Assembly: GCF_030323865.1 (NCBI RefSeq) | Contig: NZ_CP066365.1 | Location: 1-36,830 of the forward strand | From: Pseudarthrobacter defluvii | GTDB lineage: Bacteria > Actinomycetota > Actinomycetes > Actinomycetales > Micrococcaceae | Direction: 5' to 3' | DNA: 36,830 bases | Shown: positions 15,534-36,830 of the stretch, piece by piece | Numbering within the stretch: position 1 is the stretch's first letter | How the letters are laid out: each line of letters starts with the position of its first letter | Made by a program: the position numbers and the translations under genes | The notes under the pieces: generated by a model | Seen by the model: the letters and a program-made list of their open reading frames with translations, nothing else | What the model was told of the DNA's origin: nothing | Database searches by the model: none

Positions 15534-17408
15534 GTGAGTGTCAACGAACGTATCACCGAGAATTTAGTGCGTGAGGCGTTCCGCAAGCTTGGCTACTTCG
15601 ACGACGCCAGTGACACACGCGTAGAAGAACAACGAAGTCAGATCGCTGATGTAAGGCGTCTACTGAAGGGTGCATCGAAGACCGGAGGTGCAGGATTCGG
15701 CGCTCCTGAATTCATTGTCACCTCGATGAGCATCCCAGACTTCATTATGGTTGTTGAGTGCAAGGGCAGCACTCGTTACCACGAGTCCCCTGGACACGAT
15801 AAACCAGCAGATTTTGCCGTCGATGGCGCCCTAACCTACGCTGCATCGCTGTCTACGAATTTCCATGTCATCGCAGTCGCAGTGAGCGGGCAGACTGAGA
15901 AGGAACTAACGGTATCAACGTATCTTCGAGCCAGAGGATCGTCGGAAGCTCAAGTGCTCACAGCACGTTCTGGCGCTTCAATTGATCAGATTCTGCCCTG
16001 GAATGACTACATCCAGGCCGCACAGTATGACGCCGCCGTGGAGAGCGCGCGAGTCTCTGACCTCATGGCGTTCTCCCGCGAGCTGCACATATTCATGCGT
16101 GACTACGGGAAGCTGACCGAAGCTGAAAAGCCATTGCTCGTGTCCGGCACCTTGCTCGCGTTGCGAAACACCGCATTCGCCAAGAGCTACGCGAACTATG
16201 CCCCTGCCGAACTACAGCGCCAGTGGCTGCGAGTAGTCAAGGACGAGCTGGAAGCGGCCGAGATTCCGCAGGCGAAAAAAATCAACATGACTCAGCCGTA
16301 CTCCACCATCGGCGTTCACCCCGAGCTGGGCAAGGCAACCCTCACTCATCCAAGGGGCGTCCTCTACGAGTTGATTGCAATGCTCGCCCAGCATGTCCTC
16401 CCCCTGACCCTGACATATGAGGGATATGACGTCGTCGGCCAGTTCTATGGCGAATTCCTCAAGTACACGGGCGGCGACGGCAAAGCGCTGGGCATAGTCT
16501 TGACGCCTCGCCACATAACCGAGCTTTTTGCGGACCTGGCGAACCTTTCCAAGACAGACATAGTCCTCGACACGTGCGCCGGCACAGGTGGCTTCCTCAT
16601 TTCGGCCATGAACAGAATGCTCAGCACGGCCATAACTGAAGACGAACGTGAGGCGATACGTAAGCATCAGCTCATCGGTGTGGAGCAGCAACCGGGCATG
16701 TATGCTCTTGCGGCTTCCAACATGATTCTCCGTGGGGATGGCAAGGCCAACCTTTATCAGGGTTCATGCTTTGACGAAGGAGTGTCCAAAGCCGTTAAGG
16801 CCCACAAAGCAAACGTTGGTCTGATCAACCCCCCTTACAACCAACGTGGGGCGGGCCTGAGCGAGCTTTCATTTGTGCAGCATATGCTCGACTTACTCGA
16901 CGCTGGCGGCACAGGTATAGCCATTGTTCCGATGTCATGCGCGACGGCCCCCAGCAGCGAGAAGACGAGCCTCCTGAAGTCACACACGTTGGAAGCCGTA
17001 ATGTCCATGCCGAATGAACTTTTTTCCCCAGTCGGGGTGATCACGTGCATCATGGTCTTCACCGCGCACAAGCCGCACGAGCAGTCAGACCGAAAGACCT
17101 GGTTCGGATACTGGCGGGACGATGGGTTTGTAAAGACGAAGCACCTAGGCCGTATTGACCAGAATCAGCGATGGCCAGGTATTCGAGATAGCTGGGTGGA
17201 AGCATTCCGCAACAGGGAAGTGCACTCCGGAAAATCGATCACTTACAAGGTAACGGCAGAGCACGAATGGTGCGCGGAAGCGTACATGGAGACGGATTAT
17301 TCTCTGCTGACCGAAGCCGATTACGAGGCGACGATACGTGAGTACGCCATAGCGCAGCTGCTCCTTGCAAGCCGAGCTGGTTCTGGACTCGATGTTGAAG
17401 ATCAGTGA
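15534..17408 (+). CDS. BcgI-like restriction-modification A subunit (nuclease fused to N6-adenine methylase)
   Basis: 624 residues. The N-terminal ~150 residues contain a PD-(D/E)XK nuclease core, 'IPDFIMVVECKGS' (D69, E75, K77). After a helical linker comes the HsdM-type methylase: 'LTPRHITELF' (about 323-332), SAM motif I 'DTCAGTGGF' (346-354) and catalytic 'NPPY' (432-435). One chain thus cuts and methylates, as in type IIB BcgI, whose A subunit is nearly the same length. GTG 15534 is preceded by AAGGGA. The start of the B subunit overlaps the end of this gene. Base composition is less GC-rich than the neighbours, which suggests separate acquisition. The system protects the plasmid and can act as an addiction module. 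Confidence 0.85.
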   Translation: MSVNERITENLVREAFRKLGYFDDASDTRVEEQRSQIADVRRLLKGASKTGGAGFGAPEFIVTSMSIPDFIMVVECKGSTRYHESPGHDKPADFAVDGALTYAASLSTNFHVIAVAVSGQTEKELTVSTYLRARGSSEAQVLTARSGASIDQILPWNDYIQAAQYDAAVESARVSDLMAFSRELHIFMRDYGKLTEAEKPLLVSGTLLALRNTAFAKSYANYAPAELQRQWLRVVKDELEAAEIPQAKKINMTQPYSTIGVHPELGKATLTHPRGVLYELIAMLAQHVLPLTLTYEGYDVVGQFYGEFLKYTGGDGKALGIVLTPRHITELFADLANLSKTDIVLDTCAGTGGFLISAMNRMLSTAITEDEREAIRKHQLIGVEQQPGMYALAASNMILRGDGKANLYQGSCFDEGVSKAVKAHKANVGLINPPYNQRGAGLSELSFVQHMLDLLDAGGTGIAIVPMSCATAPSSEKTSLLKSHTLEAVMSMPNELFSPVGVITCIMVFTAHKPHEQSDRKTWFGYWRDDGFVKTKHLGRIDQNQRWPGIRDSWVEAFRNREVHSGKSITYKVTAEHEWCAEAYMETDYSLLTEADYEATIREYAIAQLLLASRAGSGLDVEDQ

Positions 17409-18357
17409 GCTGTTCGAAGTCGGGTATGGCAACAAATTCGACTTCAACAAGATGACGCCCGACCCCAATGGAGTCTTTTTCGTAGGCCGGTCCGGAAGCC
17501 GGCAGGGAGTTAGCGGACGGGTCGCGCCGGTTCCTGGCGTAATTCCGCATGAAGCCGGTCTGCTGACTGTTGCGCTTGGGGGTGCTTCTCGTCTGGCAAC
17601 ATTCGTGCAGCACGCCCCTTTCTACACTGCCCAGAATGTCGCTGTACTCCGCCCGCGAACAGGCATGTCTTTGGAACAGAAGCTCTATTGGGCCACATGC
17701 ATTCGAGCCAACAGGTTTCGATACGAAGGGTTTGGGCGCGAGGCCAACAGAACGCTGGCCACTCTGGAGTTGCCTGATGAGACGCCTGCCTGGCTCAACC
17801 CGGTGCCGGTTGTGGAAGGCCTAGTTAAACAAGTGCCTCTCGTTACCACTGATCACACGACGAAGGACCACCTTGGTGGCACCGTTGGGGAACTTTTCGA
17901 CATCCGCTACGGCCAGAGCCTGGAACTCAATCGCTTATCACAGGTCATCCCGCCGCAAGGCGTGAACTTTGTGAGCCGCACTGATCGGAACAACGGCGTC
18001 TCCGCACGTGTCGAGGCACCCACGGGCGTTGTCCTTGGAGATCCTGGTGAACTTACCGTTGCCCTCGGGGGGAGTCCGCTGGCGACATTCCTCCAGCCGG
18101 AACCCTTCGTATGTGGCCGAGACGTGGCAATTCTGGAACCCAAGTCTGACATGACGGATGCAGAAAAGCTCTACTGGGCGATGTGCATAAAGGCGAATCG
18201 ATATAGGTTCTCCTACGGGCGTCAGGCGAATAGAACGCTTAGCTTGCTGAAGCTGCCCGCTATGCCGGCCGCACTCACGAGCCCAGGAAAGATTGACAAC
18301 ATACTTGGAATGGTTCGAGTTGAGCTTGAAGAAACCGCAAGGAATCTAGGTCCCTGA
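17392..18357 (+). CDS. BcgI-like restriction-modification B (specificity) subunit
   Basis: 321 residues from ATG 17392, which overlaps the A-subunit stop by 17 nt; a TTG at 17365 is also in frame. It consists of two tandem target-recognition domains that resemble each other closely: 'LFEVGYGN' to 'EANRTLATLELP' and 'LFDIRYGQ' to 'QANRTLSLLKLP', each with '-LTVALGG-', '-KLYWA-CI-ANR-'. By eye about half of the residues are identical. Such a subunit reads the two halves of a split DNA site for the A subunit. A hairpin terminator follows. Confidence 0.85.
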   Translation: MLKISELFEVGYGNKFDFNKMTPDPNGVFFVGRSGSRQGVSGRVAPVPGVIPHEAGLLTVALGGASRLATFVQHAPFYTAQNVAVLRPRTGMSLEQKLYWATCIRANRFRYEGFGREANRTLATLELPDETPAWLNPVPVVEGLVKQVPLVTTDHTTKDHLGGTVGELFDIRYGQSLELNRLSQVIPPQGVNFVSRTDRNNGVSARVEAPTGVVLGDPGELTVALGGSPLATFLQPEPFVCGRDVAILEPKSDMTDAEKLYWAMCIKANRYRFSYGRQANRTLSLLKLPAMPAALTSPGKIDNILGMVRVELEETARNLGP

Positions 18358-32597: not shown

Positions 32598-34301
32598 TTA
32601 TGAGCCCGCGAGGGCGAGCTGCACGACACGGACGATGACCAGGATCATCGCCACGAGCAGGTAGAGGCGCAGGACGCTCAGACCCGCCCTTCTGGCTGTG
32701 GAAAGCTGGGGCCGCCGCAGCAGGGCAAGCGGTGGCATCCGCCACTCCGAGCGCTGGGACTGGTCTAGCTGCTCGGGAACCACAAGTTTGCCCGTGGCCC
32801 GTGCCCGTGCACGGACCACCACGAGCGCGACGGCTGCCAGGACGGCCAGGACGGCACCGCCGCCAAGGATCTCCAGGATCGTCGTTCCGTCGATGTCCGG
32901 GAAGAGAACCGCCGCGGTGAGAACGACGGAAAGGATCACGAGAACAGCGATAACTGCCGAGGTGAAGATGTTCATGCCGCGTCCGTTAACCCAGGGCCCC
33001 ATGACTTCCTTGTCGTTGCAAAGCAGTAACAGGAACACCGTCGCGGAAGGCAGCAACACGCCGGCGAGCACCTGCACGCCCACGGTGAGCAGGCCAAGGG
33101 GGCTACCCGGGATGATGACGATCACCGCGGAGAGAAGGATGAGGGCTGCGAAGGCTGCGTAGAAGCCCTTGGCTTCACTGGGCTTGCGATGCAGGGAGTG
33201 CTTCAGCCCGAGAACATCGCCCAATGCGTAGGACGTCGACAGTCCAACAGCAGCGGCGCCGATGATTGAGGCGTCGATGAGGGCCAGTGCAAACAGTATC
33301 CCCGCGGCGTGACCCACATATTTCCCCAAACCCTCCGCCACACCGCCGGCGTCGGTGAAGTGCCCGAACTCCGGCCGACCCCCGAAAGTGAAGGCGGTGA
33401 AGGAAATGATCGCCGCAGCGCTGAGGATCACGATGCCGATTCCAAGCCACAGATCCACGCGTTCGTACTTCATGTAGCGGGGTGTGATCCGCTTGTCGAT
33501 CACATAAGACTGCTGGAAGAACAGCTGCCATGGGGCGATGGTGGTGCCCACTACAGCGATGATCAGCAGCGTGACGTCGGCGATGTCGGAGCCTGCCGGG
33601 ATGCCGGGGACCACGAAGTCGTGAGCCATCTGTCCGTAGTCCGGGCCGGCCATGAAGAAGACGGGAACGAGCAGGAGTGAGCCGATGATCAGGGCCATGC
33701 AGACCCGTTCGAAACGCTGGAATGAACCCGTGCTGGCCGCGCCTATGACGAACAGGGCAGAGACGACCACACCCGCCACCTTGGGCACGCCAAGGTAGTC
33801 GAGTCCAATCGAGATTCCGATGAACTCCGTGACGATCGTGAGCGCATTGAGGATGAACAGGTCAATGGCGCTGAACGCTCCCCAAAACTTTCCGAAGCGT
33901 TCGAGGATGAGTCGGGCGTGGCCCACTCCGGTCACCACACCCAGGCGCAGCACCATCTCCTGGTTGACGAACAGGACAGGAACCAAAAGCAGCAGCGTCC
34001 ACAAAAGGGACGTCCCGTAGTTCTGCCCGGCCTGGGTGTAGGTGCCGAAGGCACCGGCGTCGTTGTCGCCGACCATGACGATCAGGCCAGGACCGACGAT
34101 CGCGAGCAGGGTCTTCAATCGCCTCTTCCAGCTCGACTGAGCCGAGGAATCCTCCAGCCGGATGGTTCCAAAGGCGCCCTTAATGTCGCCCACGTGGGCA
34201 GAGTCGAGGACTGCTGAGGTTCTGCCGTCGGCCGGGAGTGCGGGAGCGGCAGGTAGGGACCGGCCCGGTGGGGTCGTCTTGTTCATGGGGATCTTGGGCA
34301 T
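32598..34301 (-). CDS. NRAMP-family transporter, probably of the magnesium-transporting (NRMT) clade
   Basis: 567 residues with about 11 membrane helices and a polar N-terminus of ~60 residues. TM1 reads 'GPGLIVMVGDNDAGAFGTYT': the canonical DPGN metal motif is DAGA (residues 81-84), keeping Asp but losing Asn. TM6 reads 'VGTTIAPWQLFFQQS' (APW at 256-258), where Mn/Fe transporters have MPH; the soft Met ligand is gone. Loss of these ligands is a trait of NRAMP-related magnesium transporters. An M-box Mg2+ riboswitch precedes the gene and an MgtE-type sensor follows it, which both point to Mg2+ import. Start: ATG 34301; its GGGAGG site is 14 nt away with a GGAAA/TTTCC hairpin between, so ATG 34286 is an alternative. 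Confidence 0.85.
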   Translation of the reverse strand: MPKIPMNKTTPPGRSLPAAPALPADGRTSAVLDSAHVGDIKGAFGTIRLEDSSAQSSWKRRLKTLLAIVGPGLIVMVGDNDAGAFGTYTQAGQNYGTSLLWTLLLLVPVLFVNQEMVLRLGVVTGVGHARLILERFGKFWGAFSAIDLFILNALTIVTEFIGISIGLDYLGVPKVAGVVVSALFVIGAASTGSFQRFERVCMALIIGSLLLVPVFFMAGPDYGQMAHDFVVPGIPAGSDIADVTLLIIAVVGTTIAPWQLFFQQSYVIDKRITPRYMKYERVDLWLGIGIVILSAAAIISFTAFTFGGRPEFGHFTDAGGVAEGLGKYVGHAAGILFALALIDASIIGAAAVGLSTSYALGDVLGLKHSLHRKPSEAKGFYAAFAALILLSAVIVIIPGSPLGLLTVGVQVLAGVLLPSATVFLLLLCNDKEVMGPWVNGRGMNIFTSAVIAVLVILSVVLTAAVLFPDIDGTTILEILGGGAVLAVLAAVALVVVRARARATGKLVVPEQLDQSQRSEWRMPPLALLRRPQLSTARRAGLSVLRLYLLVAMILVIVRVVQLALAGS

Positions 34302-34409
34302 GGGAAACCAGCTTTCCTCCCGGCGGTGGCCGGGCGGTTGTGAAGCGGGCACGCCGGAAGCCCTGTAAGGGCCATCATCGGCATGCTGAGTGAAGGGTGG
34401 ACCGCGCTG

Positions 34410-34474
34410 AAGTCCGGTCAGGACTTAAATGAGGAGGGGGTACTATCGCCACTCGCCACGGCGAACCACCTCCT
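34410..34474 (-). promoter_or_regulatory. leader between M-box and transporter: possible leader peptide and SD hairpin
   Basis: On the minus strand AGGAGGTGG (34474-34466) is a near-perfect ribosome site. Six nucleotides later a GTG (34459) opens a 13-codon frame (VASGDSTPSSFKS) that stops at TGA 34420-34418. The same ribosome site can pair with CCCCCTCCT (34440-34432), 8 of 9 positions. AAGTCC/GGACTT (34410-34426) forms another hairpin. This may be the expression platform of the riboswitch; the peptide is speculative. Confidence 0.45.
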
Positions 34475-34522
34475 GGGCATCGACATCGTGTGCCTGCAGA
34501 GGCTCGGTCAGAGCGACCGGGC

Positions 34523-34700
34523 CCTTCCTCGTAAGACCTTCAGCACTCCGCGTCGTGACCCCCGGCCCAATGCCGGGGGAGCCAATCGGGGTTGCCCCTT
34601 AGTCCGGGGGAACCTGTCCTGACCCGTGGCGTCTCTCGACGTTGGGGGTCGCTGGCGTTTGTACGCGAAGGAGCCTCAGCTAACAAACGGCACCTTGCGT
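34523..34700 (-). ncRNA. M-box (ykoK leader) magnesium riboswitch
   Basis: Minus strand. The conserved M-box blocks appear in order: GTTAGCTGAGGCTCCT (34684-34669), then ACAAACGCCAGCGACCCCCAA, broken by the P-helix, then the core GAGACGCCACGGGTCAGGACAG in two parts (about 34635-34614), a GC-rich variable helix (34600-34560), and the 3' block AGTGCTGAAGGTCTTACGA (34547-34529). These correspond to the GAGGCUCCU, GACGCCAnnGGGUCA and AGUGCUnAAGnUCUACGA segments of known M-boxes. The element lies about 220 nt upstream of the NRAMP-type start codon, in the right orientation. M-boxes bind Mg2+ and switch off Mg2+ importer genes when Mg2+ is plentiful. Confidence 0.88.
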
Positions 34701-35023
34701 CGCTCATGATACACACAAAACCTTAAGCAAAAATGACAAGCTGCCGGCCGTCTCCAACGGGCCGGTCCTGTCCCCGATTTCGCATCCGTTCCCAGGACGG
34801 AATATAGCCGCCCCTGGGCCAGCACTCTCCTGAGCATGTCTCATAAAACAAAAACGGCCCTTTTTGCCTGTGTCGCCGGCGAAGCTCGAAACCCCTCCCA
34901 TGTGACTTTCGGCAGTAAATGGCGGCTTTTTCACGGCACTGTTTGGCGGCGCCCTGCCTGGAATGAGAGCCCGGGCGTCCACCGGGTTCCATTGCACATG
35001 AGTCCTTGGCCGTGCACTGCCGG
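34701..35023. other. divergent intergenic region between the magnesium module and TetR
   Basis: No gene. It must hold the promoter of the minus-strand riboswitch transcript (AT-rich around 34705-34735) and sequences upstream of tetR. An AAAAACGG run near 34850 and scattered short dyads are visible, but no clear -35/-10 pair. Confidence 0.45.
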
Positions 35024-35060
35024 GCAGGTTTTGCACTAAGTGCAAACCTGCGCGTAGGCT
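35024..35060 (+). promoter_or_regulatory. TetR operator overlapping a promoter
   Basis: A long dyad, GCAGGTT-t-TGCACT-A-AGTGCA-AACCTGC (35024-35051), symmetric except for one extra base, overlaps TTGCAC (35031-35036, -35) and TAGGCT (35055-35060, -10) with 18 nt between. Transcription would start at about 35067, which is the A of the tetR ATG, and no ribosome site precedes it. This suggests autorepression and a leaderless mRNA. Confidence 0.7.
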
Positions 35061-35066
35061 TTTTCC

Positions 35067-35696
35067 ATGAGTGGTTCTCCGGGCACTGTCCGCCCCGTGC
35101 AGCTCGGGTGGGAAGCGAATAAAGCCGCGACCCGCAAAGCAATTGTGGAGACGGCGATGAATCTGGTCCGTACGAAGGGGCCAGCCGGGTTTACAGTGGA
35201 CGACATCGCAGAGGCCGCGGGGGTGTCACGTCGTACTTTCTTCAACTACTTTCCCAGTCGCGAGGCGGCCCTCGTGGTCAGTATCGAGGAGTTCCTGGAC
35301 CACGCAGCGGACCAGTTCCTGTCCCGGCCGGCGCAGGAACCGCTGGTCGAGTCCATGTACGAGGTGCTGATTGCCCTGGCCGATCCCATTCATCTGGCCG
35401 CGATGGCCGAGGTATACGGACTGGCCGGGACTGACGCGCAAATGAACCGGTTCCAGCTCCAGGGCTGGGAGAACTGCGCCGAGAGGCTGGTCACCGCCAT
35501 CAGTCAACGCCCGGGGGCAGAACCCGCCCCCCTGTATGCCAGCGCCCTGGTCAGTTCGGTGCTCGCCTCCGGGAAAGCTGCGTTGTCCGAGTGGTACCGC
35601 CGCACCGGCGGTGACGTTACCGAGGAATCCCTGACGCTTCTGCGCCAGCTCCTTGTTGACGTGGTCGGATACCTGCGCCACGGCTTCACCCTATAA
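35067..35696 (+). CDS. TetR-family transcriptional regulator
   Basis: 209 residues. The N-terminal helix-turn-helix is clear ('AIVETAMNLVRTKGPAGFTV', 'DDIAEAAGVSRRTFFNYFPS'). The C-terminal ligand domain is helical and variable, so the inducer is unknown. A palindromic operator overlaps its promoter. The stop is 31 nt before the MMPL exporter start, so TetR and exporter probably form one operon controlled by TetR; this is a common arrangement for MMPL and other RND exporters. Confidence 0.93.
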   Translation: MSGSPGTVRPVQLGWEANKAATRKAIVETAMNLVRTKGPAGFTVDDIAEAAGVSRRTFFNYFPSREAALVVSIEEFLDHAADQFLSRPAQEPLVESMYEVLIALADPIHLAAMAEVYGLAGTDAQMNRFQLQGWENCAERLVTAISQRPGAEPAPLYASALVSSVLASGKAALSEWYRRTGGDVTEESLTLLRQLLVDVVGYLRHGFTL

Positions 35697-35727
35697 CCAA
35701 CCCCTTTTATCAGAACGGCTGAAATCC

Positions 35728-36830
35728 ATGGCATCCCTGCTTTATCATCTGGGCCGGCTGGCCTATCGGCGCCGTTGGTGGGTCCTGGCTCTGTGGACCG
35801 CCGTGGTGCTTGGCACCGGCGGCGCTGCTATCGCGTTCCAAGGGACCATGAGTAACAACTTCAGCATTCCGGGCACGGAAAGCCAGCGCGTCCTGGACCA
35901 GCTCGAAAAGGAACTGCCCCAGGCGGCCGGCGGCAGCGGCGCCGTGGTATTCCATGCCCCGTCCGGCAGCTTCACCCCCGCCCAGAAGCAGGCCATCGGA
36001 GACGCCCTGGCCCGGCTGAAGGACATCCCGGAAGTCCAGGCGGCTGCCAACCCCTTCGAACTGCAGAGCCAGATCGACGCCGGATCGGCCCAGCTCGCCG
36101 AGGGCAAGGCCCAGCTGGAAAATGCCAAGAAACAAATCACTGAAGGCCGCCAGCAGCTGGATGCGCAGCAGGCACAACTGGACGCCGCTGCGGCCGCCGG
36201 GGTCCCGGGCATGGACCAGGCCCTCGGCCAGTTGAAAATGGCCCGCGACCAGCTGGACGCCGGCGCGAAAGAAATCGCCGCCAACGAGGAAGCTTTGGCA
36301 TTGGGCCAGCGCAAGCTGGACGCCTCAGCCGGGATGAGGACCGTGTCCGCCGACGGAAAATCAGCCGTCACACAGATCCAGTTCACCGAGTCCATCTACG
36401 AAGTCAAGCCCGAAGTCCGTGAAGAGGTGAAGGAAACCATCACGTCGGCCACTGCTTCCGGGGTGGACGTGTATCTGAGCCAGAGCATCACCCAGGACGT
36501 CTCCGAAGTCCTCGGCACCGCAGAAATCATCGGTGTGGGCGTCGCGGCCCTTGTCCTGATCGTCATGCTCGGAACCCTGGTCGCTGCCGGACTGCCGCTG
36601 TTGATGGCCATCATCGGCGTGGCCGTCGGTGTCGGCGGAACCTTCGCGCTCTCGGGCGTTATCGAAATGGCGTCCGTGTCGGTATTCCTCGCCCTGATGC
36701 TCGGACTGGCCGTGGGCATCGATTACTCACTCTTCATCGTCAACAGACACCGGACCCAACTGCTACACGGTATGACTATGGAGGAATCCGTGGCCCGGGC
36801 CACGGGAACCTCAGGAAATTCGGTCCTGTT
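35728..36830 (+). CDS. MMPL-family exporter, N-terminal half (continues at base 1)
   Basis: Starts at ATG 35728 ('MASLLYHLGRLAYRRRWWVL'), 31 nt after tetR. A first membrane helix (about residues 17-36) is followed by the periplasmic domain. This contains an unusual Gln/Ala/Leu coiled-coil insert (about residues 110-205, 'QLAEGKAQLENAKKQITEG'). The first helices of the RND core follow ('GLAVGIDYSLFIVNRHR'). The gene has no stop in the window: the frame continues exactly into base 1, making 844 codons. The coiled-coil insert is seen in some actinobacterial MMPL exporters; a particular substrate cannot be named. Confidence 0.93.
   Translation, partial: MASLLYHLGRLAYRRRWWVLALWTAVVLGTGGAAIAFQGTMSNNFSIPGTESQRVLDQLEKELPQAAGGSGAVVFHAPSGSFTPAQKQAIGDALARLKDIPEVQAAANPFELQSQIDAGSAQLAEGKAQLENAKKQITEGRQQLDAQQAQLDAAAAAGVPGMDQALGQLKMARDQLDAGAKEIAANEEALALGQRKLDASAGMRTVSADGKSAVTQIQFTESIYEVKPEVREEVKETITSATASGVDVYLSQSITQDVSEVLGTAEIIGVGVAALVLIVMLGTLVAAGLPLLMAIIGVAVGVGGTFALSGVIEMASVSVFLALMLGLAVGIDYSLFIVNRHRTQLLHGMTMEESVARATGTSGNSVL

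Follow-up and report, generated by a model that had tools for sequence, protein, structure and literature searches.

A conserved upstream open reading frame (uORF) in the leader behind an M-box Mg2+ riboswitch is what is new at this locus; the initial annotation had left it unmentioned. On balance, we favour reading the whole as a horizontally moving Mg2+-import operon, in which an M-box/uORF/Rho OFF switch would control an NRMT-type importer and an MgtE-like feedback sensor. This reading is built on the aptamer, the gene order, the family placement of the transporter, the conservation of the uORF and of Mg2+ ligands, and the co-inheritance of the two genes, all of which were observed directly.

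Plasmid setting and gene order

The window (the whole stretch of DNA analyzed, 36,830 nt) is probably the whole contig. No overlap was found between its ends, and the end sequence therefore gave no sign of circularity. Genes for a relaxase, a TraG-type coupling protein, ParA, a ParB-like protein and a resolvase were present, and a mobile plasmid is therefore likely, in agreement with the plasmid location proposed initially. The features of the locus are:

34518..34694, minus strand: M-box Mg2+ riboswitch aptamer (RF00380; cmscan 115.2 bits, E = 2.9e-25, full model 1-169)
34499..34530, minus strand: P1 3' strand (GAGGAAGGG) and the next stem-loop, ending CCTC, a candidate P1 competitor (consensus fold; by eye)
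34467..34474, minus strand: Shine-Dalgarno (SD) sequence of the uORF, AGGAGGTG
34418..34459, minus strand: uORF of 13 codons with a GTG start, M(V)ASGDSTPSSFKS-stop, motif conserved in relatives
34302..34417, minus strand: C-rich spacer of 116 nt from uORF to transporter, a candidate Rho-loading stretch ((C-G)/(C+G) = 0.18)
32598..34301, minus strand: NRMT-type NRAMP transporter P0001, 567 aa
31260..32525, minus strand: soluble PRC-like-MgtE_N-CBS protein P0002, 421 aa, starting 72 nt past the transporter stop
35067..35696: TetR gene, divergent from the operon

The plasmid also holds an MMPL gene at its left end (68-1432). A similar exporter was read by eye on the minus strand at the right end (35710-36830), with one stop in frame across 35763-36719; no Pfam match was found in 35763-36395. 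At 15534-18357, an adenine methylase gene and a specificity-subunit match, weak and below cut-off, resemble a type I restriction-modification system.

Transporter relatives were the best 80 of 577 confirmed, with taxon labels taken from record titles. The nearest among these 80 loci was from Sinomonas albida (91% identity), whose genus (g120) differs from that of the host (g1). In the family survey an M-box was present in 32/245 genomes, and among the 18 own-genus genomes listed, host included, only in the host. The simplest reading is that the operon was brought in by the plasmid.

The M-box aptamer

The minus-strand M-box that had been proposed at 34523-34700 was recovered by the RF00380 model at 34694..34518, a few bases off, with a score well above the gathering cut-off (115.2 vs. 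44 bits). It was the sole M-box found in the 4.51 Mb (4,513,380-base) genome, and is almost certainly functional. Genomes of 79 of the best 80 relatives of 577 were searched (L070 was excluded, and part of the search used stricter filters), and an M-box lay upstream of the transporter in 37/79; a cmscan recheck of 8 actinobacterial loci previously without one gave zero matches. In the class survey, 17/296 genomes carried an M-box.

M-boxes of other kinds were seen by eye in the host's own family. An apparent MgtC/SapB first gene lay directly behind the aptamer, with no uORF, at L121, L123, L127, L128 and L130, and L136 and L143 represent a second Sinomonas M-box type with an apparent small membrane protein directly behind.

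Sequence and conservation of the uORF

The uORF begins 59 nt past the aptamer. Leaders were compared for the window, 37 NrmT-linked loci and 29 other M-boxes from the 296-genome class survey (67 leaders). An ORF with an SD was present behind the aptamer in 67/67, and was 13-64 codons long in the 64 that were aligned. L101-L103, divergent in sequence, were left out of the motif statistics and retained in the duplex and strict tests; the statistics were therefore calculated on 64 aligned leaders, weighted as 42 clusters at 85% identity. Codon-5 anchors were placed manually in L011, L013, L043, L044, L080 and L099, as were start positions in L037, L044 and L049. The uORF of L049, with a weaker SD (GGGAG), was likewise assigned by hand, and two leaders start with CTG or ATT.

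The shared motif was M-S-x-[GS]-[DH]-S-P, with a sixth codon ending in A or T. Codon 5 encoded Asp in 21.3 and His in 16.8 of 42 weighted leaders, and Pro directly followed codon 6 in 24.6/42. Codon 6 ended in A or T in 64/64 aligned leaders, and where it encoded Ser (29.0/42 weighted) the codon was AGT every time, against an AGT share of Ser codons of 26/896 in the same-locus transporters and 5.3% in eight window genes. The codons of Ser2 were mixed (AGT, AGC and TCN). The D/H codon column lay 12 nt from the start codon in 62/64 leaders, and the distance from SD to motif varied from 21 to 34 nt across the 64. From the fixed start distance, the codon-6 bias and the mixed Ser2 codons, we read the selection on the uORF as start-anchored, apparently acting in part on the peptide and in part on the codon or nucleotide.

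A motif kept for its nucleotides (low structure, a rare codon, or a protein or RNA contact), with the peptide irrelevant, is a serious contender, if somewhat short of probable. The A/T-ending sixth codon and its AGT-only Ser are what such an element would leave, but it accounts poorly for a motif held at a set distance from the start and not from the SD, or for a Ser2 written with all three kinds of codon.

An in-frame ATG lies at 34486, upstream of the GTG start. The extended uORF from this ATG was not favored, because the SD would fall within that frame. By eye, the uORF core did not pair with the aptamer in a consistent manner.

Distribution of the uORF and controls

For the strict test, an SD, a start, codon 5 as [GC]AY and codon 6 as NNW were required, and expected counts were obtained from shuffles. 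The test was framed after the motif statistics had been calculated and the own-family leaders inspected, and the motif itself was derived from the NrmT-linked and class-survey sets. Strict uORFs were present in 34/38 NrmT-linked M-box leaders (0.30 expected); the misses were L043, L044, L068 and L080, of which three were from Streptomycetaceae. In the class survey 20/29 leaders matched (0.26 expected), by family 18/21 in f10, 2/2 in f24, 0/3 in f23 (looser forms) and 0/3 in f26. The f10 leaders were similar to that of a Mycolicibacterium plasmid.

The 45 M-box places in the own family comprised the window, 7 repeats, 15 without a locus and 22 new loci that were tested. Of these last, 7/22 matched (0.24 expected), six of the seven in Sinomonas (g120), two of them identical. 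The 15 misses were seven looser uORFs by eye (L122, L124, L125, L129, L131, L132 and L137), the ambiguous L126, and the five MgtC-like and two membrane-protein-like leaders described above (L121, L123, L127, L128, L130; L136, L143). With 7/22 new loci strict, family-wide universality was ruled out, and phylum-wide universality was ruled out by 0/23 strict matches among M-box leaders outside the class (0.30 expected).

Upstream of the 80 transporters (best 80 of 577), strict uORFs accompanied 33/37 with an M-box vs. 1/43 without. The single M-box-less match (L053, Fodinicola, 404-460, MSSDDGHSTALPSRLFPC) had no RF00380 match nearby even at E up to 1; because about 0.3 matches are expected in 43 loci at the shuffle rate, it may be a chance match. 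Four plasmids were fetched out of 49 matched records. All three with a further M-box (Mycolicibacterium, Arthrobacter and Leifsonia) carried a strict uORF, and no M-box was found in the stretch fetched from the fourth (Cellulomonas). On the Mycolicibacterium plasmid the uORF reads MSPSDSPYP and heads a CBS-NRAMP-MgtC operon.

A narrow pattern matched 17 places in 10 of 394 class genomes, with 0 in the reversed control. Since 16/17 places were in genus g15 of f10 (one was in g29, and the window was not matched), the test is mainly informative for the f10 form. An M-box lay ahead of 16/17 (12 surveyed earlier and four found on checking); near the uORF of L186 there was none at gathering score.

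Leader mechanism

Shut-off of the operon at high Mg2+ would begin with folding of the M-box aptamer. It probably proceeds without an intrinsic terminator, as reported for the pe20 M-box of Mycobacterium tuberculosis (Mtb). By analogy with pe20, the folded aptamer would withhold uORF translation and Rho would terminate transcription within the C-rich spacer; when Mg2+ is low, the uORF would be translated and transcription would continue into the operon. We consider it likely that the uORF is the regulated frame.

No terminator-like site was found on the minus strand of 34250-35060; as only 0.8 would be expected in shuffles of both strands, this absence is weak evidence. In the spacer, C exceeded G in 35/36 leaders, with a median skew of 0.17 vs. 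0.04 in transporter stretches, 12% of which reached 0.17.

The consensus fold computed from 10 Sinomonas-type leaders contained a stem-loop after P1 (column-shuffle z = -5.0); the extension of this stem-loop into the P1 strand was read by eye. Other subsets gave z of -1.3 (Arthrobacter-type) and -7.7 (family f10), and no consensus fold was found across 33 Micrococcales-type leaders. P1 and SD2 could compete for one anti-SD in 48/67 leaders vs. 46.45 expected from dinucleotide shuffles, which counts against the operon reading as a whole. An anti-SD switch was accordingly not supported above the shuffle level, the best duplexes (P1-3' strand with intervening sequence, intervening sequence with SD2) being no commoner than in the shuffles, and the exchange is kept only as a model drawn from pe20.

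A bolder and rather improbable proposal is that the uORF is an old, class-wide Mg2+-sensing element of Actinomycetes. The A/T-ending codon 6 and D/H-S-P would slow early elongation in a Mg2+-sensitive manner, giving a ribosome check in series with the M-box that might also work M-box-free (L186, possibly L053).

The transporter and its substrate

The altered metal ligands described in the initial annotation were confirmed, with NDAGAF in TM1 and TTIAPW in TM6 (D81-A-G-A84 and T253-T-I-A-P-W258). In phmmer searches against solved structures, EleNRMT (7qia) scored 191 bits and the next match, Bacteroides fragilis MntH, 95 bits; the host's own MntH gave the reverse order (DraNramp 328 bits, EleNRMT 55). 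The AlphaFold2 model (39 sequences, mean pLDDT 77.5, residues 1-32 under 50) had EleNRMT as its best structural match (TM 0.85 by target length). In a 25-row tree, in which C. acetobutylicum NrmT was not among the rows, three classical NRAMPs (the MntH group) split off at 100/99 and the transporter joined EleNRMT at 88/86, with long-branch warnings. The placement apart from Mn/Fe NRAMPs that the annotation had anticipated was thus obtained.

The published signature of the NRMT clade is DxxG-TxxA/T (Ramanadane et al., 2022, PMC8806188, in the part of the text covered). Among the best 80 of 577 relatives, TM6 read T[VI]APW in 80/80, in agreement with TxxA/T. TM1 read DAGA in 79/80 and DAGG in one; with DAGA and not DxxG, the protein is filed as NRMT-type, not strict NRMT, and this TM1 also weighs against the Mg2+-import operon reading. 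An N-tail motif (~30-47) and two C-terminal helices extend beyond the EleNRMT core, and were common to relatives with and without an MgtE-like neighbor.

That Mg2+ is a substrate is highly likely, and the transporter would import it in low Mg2+. In an unlikely alternative, the transporter carries mainly Mn2+ (or both ions), the MgtE-like protein answers Mn2+, and the M-box merely links expression to Mg2+ status. EleNRMT was experimentally shown to transport both Mg2+ and Mn2+ (PMC8806188, same part), TM1 here is DxxA and not DxxG, and the NrmT of A. capsulatum rescued a Mn2+ defect fully and a Mg2+ defect weakly (PMC4072509, in the part of the text covered), which likewise speaks against an operon for Mg2+ import. 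An M-box upstream in 37/79 searched relatives (best 80 of 577) argues the other way, the M-box having been suggested in the covered text of Shin et al. (PMC4072509) to mark those transporters of this kind that are specific for Mg2+.

Two further relatives were noted. The chromosomal NRAMP-related gene at L086 1411-4090 has DPSG/TISPY replacing DPGN/MPH, adjoins a CorA gene and encodes a protein nearer EleNRMT (152 bits) than MntH. Another NRAMP paralogue, at L087 1429-2655, has a metal site that reads DIGD and LTPYE, and sits on a very long branch.

The MgtE-like protein

P0002 had Pfam matches above cut-off to MgtE_N (178-279) and CBS only. It ends ~20 residues past the CBS, and no Pfam match to a pore domain was found. 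Of the soluble, poreless PRC-MgtE_N-CBS architecture proposed initially, MgtE_N, CBS and the lack of a pore were borne out, and the PRC of P0002 fell below cut-off (15.6 vs. 21.2 bits); PRC was above cut-off in a chromosomal paralogue (32.6 bits) and in some homologues. Foldseek on the AlphaFold2 model (mean pLDDT 81.8, pTM 0.56) returned MgtE cytosolic domains at the top (E = 2e-17). Superposition of the whole model on the MgtE cytosolic domain was poor (rmsd 14, TM 0.46 by target length), and its domain arrangement is therefore not to be trusted.

Ligands were mapped by alignment to Thermus MgtE (TtMgtE), with numbering taken as chain residue minus 3, an inferred offset. The TtMgtE Mg2+ ligands given in the covered part of PMC5882242 are D91/D247 (Mg4), D95 (Mg6), E59 (Mg7) and D226/D250 (Mg5). 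In P0002, D91/D247 correspond to D243/D397, D95 to D247, E59 to D211 and D226/D250 to N376/E400. D243, D244, D247, N376, D396 and D397 were invariant in 41 proteins, among them the chromosomal paralogue, with D211 and E400 close to invariant. E258 and D259 (Mg2, Mg3) were not kept (S408/R409, alignment extended by hand). With the Mg4 and Mg6 ligands kept and those of Mg2 and Mg3 lost, it is plausible that the protein responds to Mg2+ between its N and CBS domains, and implausible that it makes a plug-type contact. The lost Mg2/Mg3 ligands and the Asn in place of Mg5 D226 count against the operon reading. Even so, we would expect with good confidence that the protein binds Mg2+.

Pairing of transporter and sensor

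Adjacency of the two genes, which the initial annotation had put forward for survey, recurs in relatives. An MgtE-like gene lay downstream on the same strand in 38/80 relatives (best 80 of 577), with 54-222 nt between matched stretches, including 27/37 with an M-box. It was absent at 10/37 M-box loci and 32/43 M-box-less loci of the same 80 (two MgtE-less loci have <1,300 nt of DNA downstream), and thus the transporter can in some cases do without it in the vicinity. By taxon, again among the best 80 of 577, the 44 actinobacterial loci had M-box and MgtE in 26, M-box only in 10, MgtE only in 2 and neither in 6; the 36 proteobacterial loci had both in 1, M-box only in 0, MgtE only in 9 and neither in 26. 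The sole proteobacterial locus with both (L052) is from a metagenome bin labelled Proteobacteria.

Transporter and sensor distances were correlated across 39 loci (r = 0.827, Mantel P = 0.0005). In Dyella (L062) and Caulobacter (L063) the pair was 100%/99% identical and the M-box absent, a recent transfer between classes. Together, the correlation and the identical pair show joint transfer, not contact. No transporter-sensor fusion was found by Pfam annotation in the best 120 homologues of each protein, of thousands. No position was >85% conserved to different residues in partnered and unpartnered transporters; conservation of the C-terminal loop was 0.65 partnered vs. 0.48 unpartnered, a difference confounded with descent.

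With Mg2+ bound between the N and CBS domains, the soluble MgtE-like protein would most likely lower transport once cytosolic Mg2+ is restored. Gating of the transporter in trans is how we tentatively picture this; adjacent genes co-inherit irrespective of protein contact. It is also quite possible, if doubtful, that the protein does not touch the transporter and serves as a free Mg2+ buffer or sensor acting on another membrane partner. The neighbor is absent in 42/80 relatives (best 80 of 577), and a DUF1003 protein, not an NRAMP gene, directly follows the chromosomal paralogue, whose architecture is the same; same-strand adjacency and joint horizontal transfer speak against this alternative. 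That paralogue (L082 964-2926) is a second PRC-MgtE_N-CBS protein on the host chromosome, 31-33% identical to P0002.

Relation to published systems

The arrangement of M-box, NRAMP-related gene and MgtE-like gene, thought unknown in the initial annotation, has been in print since 2014. In the part of their text covered, Shin et al. (2014, PMC4072509) described M-boxes ahead of Nramp-related genes, two of whose products rescued a Mg2+-transport-deficient strain, one fully and one only at low millimolar Mg2+. A homologue of the MgtE cytoplasmic domain was next door in most of the group, and feedback was speculated upon; the idea of an MgtE domain gating the transporter in trans is therefore not new. 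The agreement of the parts on one substrate held as regards the parts and their common Mg2+ theme (covariance match, EleNRMT side, adjacency), and the novelty claimed for it did not. In the same covered text, the A. capsulatum NrmT, whose gene likewise lies beside one for part of MgtE, had Mn2+ as its main target, and a single co-expression test gave no added rescue. Titles and abstract openings of later literature yielded no test of gating. The operons of Shin et al. are like the present one in M-box, Nramp-related gene and adjacent MgtE cytoplasmic-domain homologue. They are unlike it in being mostly from Clostridia and Deltaproteobacteria ("actinobacteri" was not found in the main text), whereas here the operon is plasmid-borne and in Actinomycetes; most M-boxes, by their account, act via an intrinsic terminator, whereas the leader here has a uORF and no terminator-like site was found in it. 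Because the Mg2+ ligands are conserved, the question they raised in 2014, of a detached MgtE sensor gating an NRAMP-fold transporter, can be put to the test.

Among solved structures, EleNRMT (PDB 7qia; PMC8806188) is the best sequence and fold match and has an identical TM6 (TTIAPW), but its TM1 reads DAGG and not DAGA, and it lacks the extra N-tail and C-terminal helices. The Thermus MgtE cytosolic domain (2yvy) shares the N domain, CBS and inter-domain Mg2+ ligands with P0002; unlike it, P0002 has neither plug nor pore, has a PRC-like N-terminal part, and is without the Mg2/Mg3 ligands.

The leader has its nearest counterpart in Mtb. In the part of their text covered, D'Halluin et al. (2026, PMC12810186) reported that the pe20 M-box controls uORF2 via a translational platform and Rho, called the uORF2 peptide mycobacteria-specific, and reported an M-box-free homologue, to which the M-box-free uORF of L186 is a parallel. 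The two leaders (uORF2/Rv1805A in Mtb) share an SD and a short conserved uORF placed after the aptamer and before the first gene, and no intrinsic terminator. They differ in that the Mtb operon is PE/PPE (manganese-type and mgtE-type mycobacterial M-boxes were also listed), whereas here it is NrmT; the present motif lies ahead of NrmT in Micrococcaceae and Microbacteriaceae, and is mostly looser in Streptomycetaceae. As in Rv1805A, an SD and a short ORF with a conserved N-terminus follow the aptamer; the window has its proline at position 8, Rv1805A at position 7. Because the peptide letters are not printed in the text covered, the match relies on location, SD, proline and the copy on the Mycolicibacterium plasmid. 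No other report of this uORF was found in the open-licence full-text literature. A uORF called mycobacteria-specific in the covered text of 2026 thus also occurs with the M-boxes of Mg2+-transporter operons elsewhere in the Actinomycetes. This suggests that Mg2+ import was its original setting, and the codon-6 constraint and the M-box-free copy offer direct handles for experiment.
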